DNA from: a bacterium | Lineage (GTDB): Bacteria > Armatimonadota > Zipacnadia > Zipacnadales > UBA11051 | Direction of reading: 5' to 3' | NCBI GenBank assembly: GCA_021372615.1 | Contig: JAJFUB010000135.1 | Span: 1-37,170, forward strand | DNA length: 37,170 nucleotides | Shown: piece after piece, positions 6,894-29,732 of the stretch | Layout: the number at the start of each line of letters is the position of its first letter | How positions within the stretch are numbered: the stretch's first letter is position 1 | Notes under the pieces: model-generated | Database searches by the model: none | The model's input: the letters and a program-made list of their open reading frames with translations, nothing else | Told to the model about the DNA's origin: nothing | Translations under genes and position numbers: made by a program

Positions 6894-7829
6894 GTGCCCC
6901 GGAGAAGGGCCTCGCCCGCACCGGCGCGAATAGACCCCTCGGTGAGGCCCTTGGCGCGCAAAGAATGGCGAGACAAGAACAAGCTCAACGACCTGAGCAC
7001 CCGTGACTGGCTCCTGTTCCAAAAGAGCTGGTTCGTCCACAACCCCCCGCCGCGGCAGAAGGGCGTCCTGCGCCACCCGGCCAAGTTCCCCGAGACGATG
7101 ATCGAGGAGTTCATCCGCTTCTTCACCAAGGCCGGGCAGGTCGTCCTGGACCCCATGGCCGGCACCGGCAGCACGATCATCGCCGCCGCCCGCACCGGCC
7201 GCATCGGCATCGGGGTGGAGTTGCAGGACCAATACGCACAGATCGCCCGCGAATGGCTGGCGGAGGAGCTCTGTAGGGCGGGGGCTTGTACCCCGCCTGC
7301 CGATAGCGGTGTCGAGGCATCGGGCGGGGTACAAGCCCCCGCCCTACAGTCCCGCATCATCACCGGCGACGCCCTCCGCCTCGGCCGCCTCAAGCTCCCG
7401 CCGGTTGACTACTGCATCACCTCCCCCCCATACTGGGACATGCTCCGTCGCCAGGGCTTCGAGACCCAGCAGAAGCGCGCCGCAGCGGACGATCTGGACA
7501 TGTACTACTCCGACGACGAGGCCGACCTGGGTAACATCGCCGACTACGACCACTTCCTGCGCCTGCTGCTGCGGGTCTACCGCCAGGTGGCGAAGGTGCT
7601 GCGGCCCGGGGCCTACCTGACCGTCATCGTCAAGAACGTGAAGAAGGGCGGCACGATCTACCCGCTGGCCTGGGACCTGGGCCGGGGCCTCGGCCGCTTC
7701 CTGACGCTCAAGGACGAGAAGATCTGGTGCCAGGACAACCAGCGCCTCGCGCCCTACGGCATGGGCAACGCCTGGGTGTCCAACACGATGCACCACTACT
7801 GCCTGAACTTCCGGAAGGACCAGCCATGA
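6894..7829 (+). CDS. site-specific DNA methyltransferase, probably N4-cytosine type
   Basis: A 311-residue protein of the N6_N4_Mtase fold (PF01555). The AdoMet-binding motif is DPMAGTGST at residues 86-94, preceded by the conserved HPAKFPETMIEEFIRFF; the catalytic motif is TSPPYW at 176-181, where Ser-Pro-Pro-Tyr points to N4-cytosine methylation. The C-terminal LAWDLGRGLGRF and IWCQDN segments agree with the family. No restriction endonuclease is adjacent, so it looks like an orphan enzyme. Residues 127-152 are encoded by a perfect inverted repeat described separately; the usual family sequence seems to resume at IITGDA. The start is uncertain: GTG at 6894 falls in a repeat, and GTG at 6942 is an alternative without a clear ribosome binding site. 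Its stop overlaps the next gene (ATGA). Confidence 0.85.
   Translation: MPRRRASPAPARIDPSVRPLARKEWRDKNKLNDLSTRDWLLFQKSWFVHNPPPRQKGVLRHPAKFPETMIEEFIRFFTKAGQVVLDPMAGTGSTIIAAARTGRIGIGVELQDQYAQIAREWLAEELCRAGACTPPADSGVEASGGVQAPALQSRIITGDALRLGRLKLPPVDYCITSPPYWDMLRRQGFETQQKRAAADDLDMYYSDDEADLGNIADYDHFLRLLLRVYRQVAKVLRPGAYLTVIVKNVKKGGTIYPLAWDLGRGLGRFLTLKDEKIWCQDNQRLAPYGMGNAWVSNTMHHYCLNFRKDQP
7271..7349. repeat. 79-bp perfect inverted repeat inside the methyltransferase gene
   Basis: The 27-base arms 7271-7297 and 7323-7349 are perfect reverse complements, separated by 25 bases. The left arm starts CTGTAGGGCGGGGGCTTG. The element is read through in frame as a 26-residue peptide (RAGACTPP to VQAPALQ) between the AdoMet-binding region and the catalytic motif. 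It could form a very stable hairpin in DNA or mRNA. Confidence 0.9.
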
Positions 7830-10404: not shown

Positions 10405-10560
10405 TGCCGGCTCGCGGAAGCTCGCGTCACAATAGGCGGTGGGCGTCGCGGCGAGGTCGCTGCGCGGCGTCACCGCGACACCCACGACCTGTCTGCGTCA
10501 GCACGCAACCCGATGCAAGTCAGCACTAGTGTGCTGTCCAGGTGATGGTTAGAGGCTGTC

Positions 10561-10612
10561 CAGTAGGGCAGGCGGCTCGCCTGCCCGCGCGGGCGGGCCG
10601 CCCGCGCTACTG
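10561..10612. repeat. compound inverted repeat
   Basis: Outer arms CAGTAG and CTACTG bracket two internal hairpins: GGGCAGGC/GCCTGCCC with a five-base loop and GCGCGGGC/GCCCGCGC with a five-base loop. The layout (outer short inverted repeat, two inner stem-loops) resembles a miniature mobile palindrome such as a bacterial interspersed mosaic unit. Confidence 0.7.
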
Positions 10613-10662
10613 GGACCACAGAGCCAATCGCGGGACACAACACCAGTCCGCACCGGGCGCAG

Positions 10663-10689
10663 CGGTACGCCCGACACTCCTGTCGGGCG
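10663..10689 (+). repeat. palindrome GCCCGACA/TGTCGGGC, intergenic copy
   Basis: The core GCCCGACA-CTCC-TGTCGGGC is preceded by CGGTAC and followed by G. The same element, with the GGTAC flank, occurs three times inside the ABC permease gene (29406-29513). Here it lies 22 bases before a start codon. Confidence 0.8.
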
Positions 10690-28496: not shown

Positions 28497-29732
28497 CTAC
28501 CCCTTCATCCCGCTGAGCACGATCCCGCGCACGAAGTACCGCTGCCCCACCAGGAACACCACGATCACCGGCGCCATGACCATCACACTCGCGGCCATCA
28601 GCAGCGGCCAGTCCGTGTTGTACTGACTCATGAAGGCGTACAGCCCCAGCATCAGCGGGCGCTTCTCCATCGAGTTGATGACGATCAGCGGCCACATGAA
28701 CGAGTTCCACGTGCCCAGGAAGATGAAGGTCGTCAGCGTCGCCAGCGCCGGTCCGGAGAGGGGGAGGATCACATTGCGGTACACACCCCACAACCCGCAG
28801 CCATCCATCTTCGCCGCGTCCTCCAGATCGCGCGGGATGGACAGGAAGAACTGCCGCAGCAGGAACGTGCCGTACGCCGTGAACATCGGCGGCAGGATCA
28901 TCGCCAGGTAGGTGTCCACCCACCCCATCACCTTCAGCAGCACGAACACGGGGATCATGGTCACGACCGACGGCACCATCATCGTGCCCAGGTAGCCCAG
29001 GAAGAGGCGGTCGCGCCCGGGGAAGCTCAGGCGCGCGAAGGCGAAGGCCGCCAGGCTGGACGTGAACACCGCCCCCGCCGTGACCAGGATCGTGACGATC
29101 AGCGAGTTGAGGTAGAAGGCGACGAAGGCGTTCCGCAGCGGGAAGCCCGGGAAGTGCAGCGGCCCCAGCTTCGCGAACCCCAGGTTGAGCTGGTAGGGCA
29201 GGTCCCACGACAGCCAGTTGCGCTGCAGCCGCAGTGCGCGCCAGGCCTCCGGGTAGTTGCTCCACCGCAGGCGCACCTGCTTGACCGGGGTGAGCACGCC
29301 AGGAGCCAGGCGCACGGTGAAGGGCTGCCCGAGCTGGCCGTCCGCCAGCAGCGCCGCCACCTCGGCCTCCCCGGGCGCGGTGCGCAGCCGCACGACGCGC
29401 TGCCCGGTACGCCCGACACTCCCGTCGGGCGACACACCGGCATCGGTACGCCCGACACTCTTGTCGGGCGACGCACCCGTACCCCCGCGCCCGACAGGAG
29501 TGTCGGGCGTACCGGCAAGGATGAAGACCGGCAACTCCTCCCCCGTCCTCGGGTCGCGCCATGTCTGCGGCTCGCGCGGGACGAACTGCGGCGGGAACTC
29601 CCCGACCGCATCGGGTGCCTTGAGCGAAGTCGAGACCATCCACAGCAGCGGCAGCAGCATCGTCACGCCGCCGACGATGAGCGCGGCATGCGCGACGGCT
29701 GGCCACGGGTTGCGCGGGCGTCGGCGCTTCAT
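28497..29732 (-). CDS. carbohydrate ABC transporter permease (MalG type)
   Basis: A 411-residue inner-membrane permease. TM1 is about residues 15-38; the remaining helices lie after about 205, with the cytoplasmic EAA-type loop EDAAKMDGCGLWGVYRNVILPLSGPAL that contacts the ATPase, and the family end SQYNTDWPLLMAASVMVMAP. It would be one half of a sugar-importing channel. The MalF-type partner, binding protein and ATPase are not in the window. The external loop after TM1 is very long, and residues 73-111 are encoded by three copies of one palindrome, read as repeating TPD/SPD-x-x-VGR units. The ATG overlaps the stop of the preceding gene (ATGA), so translation is coupled. Confidence 0.9.
   Translation of the reverse strand: MKRRRPRNPWPAVAHAALIVGGVTMLLPLLWMVSTSLKAPDAVGEFPPQFVPREPQTWRDPRTGEELPVFILAGTPDTPVGRGGTGASPDKSVGRTDAGVSPDGSVGRTGQRVVRLRTAPGEAEVAALLADGQLGQPFTVRLAPGVLTPVKQVRLRWSNYPEAWRALRLQRNWLSWDLPYQLNLGFAKLGPLHFPGFPLRNAFVAFYLNSLIVTILVTAGAVFTSSLAAFAFARLSFPGRDRLFLGYLGTMMVPSVVTMIPVFVLLKVMGWVDTYLAMILPPMFTAYGTFLLRQFFLSIPRDLEDAAKMDGCGLWGVYRNVILPLSGPALATLTTFIFLGTWNSFMWPLIVINSMEKRPLMLGLYAFMSQYNTDWPLLMAASVMVMAPVIVVFLVGQRYFVRGIVLSGMKG
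29406..29513. repeat. three copies of the GCCCGACA/TGTCGGGC palindrome inside the permease gene
   Basis: Copies at 29406-29431, 29444-29470 and, inverted, 29489-29513 each carry the GGTAC flank and a GCCCGAC stem with a short loop. The second differs from the intergenic copy at 10663-10689 by one loop base. Because the element is palindromic, both orientations encode similar peptides. The array lies in the external loop of the permease. Confidence 0.9.

Follow-up and report, generated by a model that had tools for sequence, protein, structure and literature searches.

A GTAC-tagged family of REP-like palindromes in an Armatimonadota genome and its in-frame insertion in an ABC transporter permease gene

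An ABC transporter permease gene in an Armatimonadota genome was found to contain three copies of a short palindrome, which very probably belong to a family of REP elements with a GTAC tag. Members of this family form tag-outward doublets and would be mobilised by a RAYT transposase. One such doublet appears to have entered the permease gene and to have been extended by a 39-nt duplication, most probably without consequence for the host protein. The analysed stretch of DNA comprises 37,170 nt and is referred to here as the window.

Palindrome copies in the window

The element has the structure GGTAC-GCCCGACA-CTCY-TGTCGGGC. Within the permease ORF it occurs in two direct copies and one inverted copy, as described in the original prediction. 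Copy 1 is located at 29406-29430 (plus strand) and deviates by one mismatch (CTCC/CGTCGGGC), copy 2 is located at 29445-29469 (plus strand) and the inverted copy 3 at 29489-29513 (minus strand). A near-identical intergenic copy had been placed at 10663-10689 and was found as a single extragenic element at 10664-10688 on the plus strand, 25 nt 5' of the ATG start codon of a trpF-like gene. Five matches to the palindrome with up to three mismatches were detected in the window, four of which are these copies, compared to 0.78 expected; none of 100 shuffled sequences reached this number.

Copies 2 and 3 form a tag-outward, REPIN-like doublet with a 71-nt hairpin, for which folding of 29444-29514 as single-stranded DNA gave -37.3 kcal/mol (z -10.65). 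Copies 1 and 2 are parts of a tandem unit of 39 nt, corresponding to 13 codons, which is repeated at 85% identity. Since this identity includes the spacer, the permease cluster is read as one doublet plus a local duplication of 13 codons. A threefold amplification within the gene, as initially assumed, is thus retained for one local in-frame duplication of 39 nt, and the rest is better understood as one tag-outward doublet. Clusters of the ++- and +-- type and tandem clusters (arrays of approximately 41-42 nt) are also present outside of genes, away from the permease.

Further repeats are located in the window. A second, unrelated doublet with a GTAG tag (GTAGGGCAGGCGGCTCGCCTGCC...) forms an inverted repeat at 10560-10613 (plus strand), 50 nt from the GTAC copy in the same intergenic stretch, and its tag plus hairpin has 32 matches genome-wide. 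At 7271-7349 the 27-nt sequence CTGTAGGGCGGGGGCTTGTACCCCGCC forms a perfect inverted pair separated by 25 nt, and parts of this unit adjoin GTAC elements at several loci (e.g., L044 and L075), as if nested. Another repeat, GC-rich and about 41 nt long (AGGCGGTGGGTGGCGCGTCGTGTGCGCCGGGCCCCGCC...), occurs at positions 10434, 12194, 19187 and 28447 and also at the ends of three other contigs (C4, C29 and C83), apparently break points of the assembly.

Genome-wide distribution and structure of the element

For the original prediction a genome-wide search had been proposed, with absence of the element elsewhere as the result that would speak against it. Instead, about 115 dispersed copies were found. 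The 6.41 Mb genome contains 102 sites with the pattern GCCCGACA-N0-10-TGTCGGGC and none with the reversed control pattern, and the 24-mer GTAC form was detected at 115 places on many contigs (up to three mismatches). A purely local origin, in which a chance palindrome of the permease gene was copied in place without any dispersed element, would account for the 39-nt unit and spacer shared by the direct copies, and one local duplication did take place. However, about 115 copies are spread over many contigs of the genome and share their tag and end points. This excludes local duplication as the sole origin, an explanation which we regard as hardly conceivable.

In an alignment of 118 copies, conservation starts sharply at GGTAC and stops after TGTCGGGC, followed by a weaker G, a possible pairing partner of the tag's C. 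The flanks are near background, so that conservation is confined to 25-26 nt. The unit of 25 nt consists of GGTAC and a 20-nt hairpin with a stem of 8-9 bp and the loop CTCY. The foot GGTAC is present in 102 of the 118 copies, and no GTAG foot occurs among the feet listed for the copies of this genome. Neighbouring copies are arranged tag-out in 31 pairs and tag-in in 2; the palindromes of 26 of the 31 tag-out doublets are separated by 12-16 nt of non-conserved sequence, and the doublets fold as a single long single-strand hairpin. A larger mobile unit around the element was considered and rejected, as the alignments obtained from flank comparisons were mainly centred on the elements and conservation does not extend beyond 25-26 nt. 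A systematic count of hairpin feet across the fetched loci gave no further GTAC family.

Position relative to genes

The regions around copies listed at no more than one mismatch were fetched and scored with a three-periodic coding model, resulting in 62 clusters. Of these, 38 are co-directional intergenic, 15 convergent, 3 divergent and 4 intragenic in frame, while 2 are located at contig ends. Hence approximately 58 of the 62 clusters lie outside of coding sequence, many of them near stop codons. If the coding fraction is assumed to be 0.80-0.85, the four intragenic clusters (about 6%) mean that the element is massively under-represented within genes. Another four cases, which at first seemed to be intragenic (L029, L035, L063 and L078), were dropped, since the start codon is likely located downstream of the element. 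The prevalence of co-directional and convergent over divergent positions corresponds to the published REP pattern (PMC3733652).

This distribution, together with the strong fold, would also fit an element acting mainly as an RNA hairpin, i.e., as mRNA stabiliser, attenuator or terminator, with intragenic copies regulating translation or transcript ends; such roles have been proposed for REPs in general (PMC3733652). However, the element is not followed by a T-run, no Rfam match was obtained in the window, and the dispersal, the conserved tag and the in-frame intragenic copies would be left unexplained. As a main function this is considered highly improbable, but it is compatible with a REP element as a secondary effect.

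In-frame insertion into the permease gene

The host gene at 28497-29732 (minus strand) encodes a MalG-like ABC transporter permease (BPD_transp_1, Pfam PF00528, E 8.7e-19), and the nearest named relatives of the protein belong to the Armatimonadota/Zipacnadia. Residues 76-110 (approximately) are derived from the element and read GTPDTPVGR-GGTGA-SPDKSVGR-TDAGV-SPDGSVGR, in agreement with the predicted TPD/SPD-x-x-VGR repeat. This stretch is absent from orthologues with 53-73% identity, and the alignment to the nearest orthologue is interrupted exactly at 76/109. Between the strand 'LPVF' and 'VARL', orthologues have about 10 residues compared to 42 in the permease of the window, a net gain of 32 residues (96 nt). 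From this comparison, approximately 4 ancestral linker residues seem to have been replaced.

In an AlphaFold model (13 sequences, mean pLDDT 75.9), residues 78-105 are below 50. This segment links strand 66-72 to strand 112-119 in a beta domain, which is flanked by helix 10-36 and helix 202-234, so that the insert is predicted to form a disordered turn. According to the established topology of such permeases, the beta domain is extracytoplasmic. The proposed in-frame insertion into an external loop is therefore supported by the additional 96 nt relative to the orthologues and by the predicted extracytoplasmic domain.

The insertion can be explained by a sequence of events in which a RAYT/TnpA-REP HuH transposase, most likely acting in trans, would copy or transfer the element as single-stranded hairpin DNA, mainly in the form of tag-outward inverted doublets (REPINs). 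One doublet would have entered the permease gene at the point where two beta strands of the extracytoplasmic domain are joined by a turn. It may have persisted because it is free of stop codons in all frames, because the net gain is a multiple of three and because the site tolerates a disordered insert, and the third copy would have arisen later by the 39-nt tandem duplication in frame. Most likely, the insert represents selfish DNA which is neutral for the host and would be translated by chance.

Other host proteins and reading registers

The remaining in-frame hosts are SelB, an MttB-like methyltransferase and a DNA methylase; the four host proteins are unrelated to each other. In the MttB-like protein (L046), 22 element residues replace the KHRD of its relatives, a net gain of 18 residues compared to five relatives. 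In the DNA methylase (L068) the insert is located at a motif junction and separates the SAM-binding from the catalytic half. In the SelB gene (L075, 9687-11684, minus strand), two repeat families contribute to a compound insert in the GTPase domain, situated between residues 60 and 91 (approximately, relative to 5lzb) and including part of the second family.

It had been suggested that insertion is tolerated in both orientations because these encode similar peptides. This holds for the register xPDxxVG, but other intragenic copies are read as RPTGVSGVP, QECPAY or ARQECRAY, and the registers differ between the cases. Tolerance more likely rests on openness in six frames, a length divisible by three and insertion at linker sites. 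The GTAC element has no stop codon in any of the six frames and the GTAG form has one. Openness alone is not remarkable, as about 39% of random 26-mers with the same G + C content are also open in six frames.

The encoded repeat xPDxxVGR could also have been spread by selection at the protein level, as a module with a functional or structural role. Three near-identical units in one loop and the GTPDTPVGR frame in two other proteins are in line with this assumption. Against it stand the use of other registers, the unrelated hosts, the predicted disorder of the insert and the fact that most copies are non-coding, and we consider selection on the peptide to be very unlikely.

An insertion at the same site in a second genome

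The permease orthologue of a second Armatimonadota genome, G028 (L113, 355-1662; also recorded as L084), carries its own, unrelated insert at the homologous turn. The DNA of this insert contains GTAGGGCAAGCGTCTCGCCTGCC, a REP of the GTAG type, whose tag plus hairpin has 27 matches in G028 (up to three mismatches) and none in the control. The same turn of the permease was thus reached by two unrelated REP families in independent events. A similar case is recB in two Xanthomonas species, where different REPs are found at approximately the same site (PMC3733652); here it is the turn of an ABC permease in two Armatimonadota genomes.

Comparison with known palindromic repeats

GTAG REPs and REPINs are known as hairpins of 20-40 nt (PMC3733652; PMC3116915; PMC8266576). 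With these elements the GTAC family shares the hairpin with an unpaired 5' tag, the high copy number and the tag-outward doublets and clusters (PMC3733652; PMC3116915; PMC8266576), and furthermore the location mostly downstream of genes, the presence of several families per genome, the intragenic copies and the presence of RAYT-like genes in the genome. It differs in the fourth base of the tag, which is C, in spacers which are not conserved and shorter than the usual 20-100 nt, in the lack of a copy next to a RAYT gene and in the host phylum, Armatimonadota. Among the characters of a REP, copy number, inverted tag-out doublets and extragenic bias were observed, while the tag is not GTAG. The GTAC element would work like a GTAG REP/REPIN and is filed as a variant, since its tag differs.

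Insertion into genes is a known kind of event, as intragenic REPs have already been published (PMC3733652). In Opitutus terrae and others they likewise occur as singles, dimers or groups in frame in unrelated proteins but differ in family and tag, and intragenic dimers of 20-30 codons were described (PMC3733652). Rickettsia palindromic elements (RPEs) are also palindromic and translated in frame inside unrelated genes. However, they are about 150 nt long (or small and CGTC-tagged) and nearly half of them are intragenic (PMC10969869), compared to units of 25 nt and the small intragenic fraction of the GTAC clusters.

Among 291 Armatimonadota genomes, the palindrome was found in the genome analysed here with GTAC, in G111 (7 copies with GTAG) and in G023, where one copy has GTAG and further copies have a displaced or missing tag. 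These findings bear on another possibility, namely that the element belongs to a different class of mobile palindromes (CGTC-type REP, Rickettsia RPE or MITE) and resembles GTAG REPs only superficially. The absence of an adjacent RAYT gene and of a GTAG tag could be taken in this sense, and CGTC REPs, too, are without a transposase of their own and can be intragenic (PMC3733652). However, the same palindrome is combined with GTAG in G111 and G023. The consensus has neither a CGTC tag nor a unit of about 100-150 nt as in CGTC-type REPs and RPEs, and the 25-nt unit lacks the terminal inverted repeats outside the hairpin and the length of 70-300 nt that characterise MITEs. Membership in such a class is therefore judged unlikely.

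Tag and transposase

In the published REP tags (GTAG, GTRG and GYAG) the second and third positions vary and the final G is kept (PMC3733652; PMC3116915). The GTAC tag, with C as fourth base, therefore looks to be what is new in this family. In vitro, a change from GTAG to GTAC abolished cleavage by TnpA-REP of S. maltophilia, which speaks against a REP of the usual kind, whereas the Marinomonas enzyme was redirected by GTAC to cleavage at GA and GT (PMC8266576). A RAYT serving the GTAC family would thus be expected to select other cleavage sites. As a tentative and rather speculative scenario, the tag may have switched from GTAG to GTAC with the palindrome kept and a co-adapted RAYT cleaving at GT/GA instead of CT.

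Seven Y1 genes, five RAYT-like and two IS200-like, were identified in the genome (assembly 96.7% complete, 171 contigs); the RAYT-like genes are located on C34, C125, C146, C154 and C160. None of the RAYT-like genes in this assembly is located within about 5 kb of a GTAC element, and neither the seven Y1 genes nor the twelve Y1 genes of G111 and G023 adjoin the palindrome in the stretches read. Because no RAYT-like gene lies near a GTAC copy, mobilisation by a RAYT is only inferred. The cognate enzyme could be encoded in the unassembled part, act in trans or have been lost. The Y1 gene L022 of the analysed genome is 52% identical to L211 of G111 but was rejected as the element-linked enzyme, as its flanking repeats are of another sequence.

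Implications

In a literature search for REPs in Armatimonadetes no paper was found. In this phylum, REPs are now seen to have become part of genes for housekeeping-type proteins, where they would be translated. Two REP families at the same turn of orthologous permeases would mark, as a naturally occurring map, where insertions are permitted. One later REP survey was limited to GTAG/GTGG tags, and searches confined in this way would miss families like GTAC. If the switch of the tag took place, the TAG stop would also have been lost and the element would have become translatable in any insertion register. The model that the tag bases choose the cleavage site has so far been tested only with mutated oligonucleotides (PMC8266576), and the GTAC and GTAG forms of one palindrome would provide a natural test of it.
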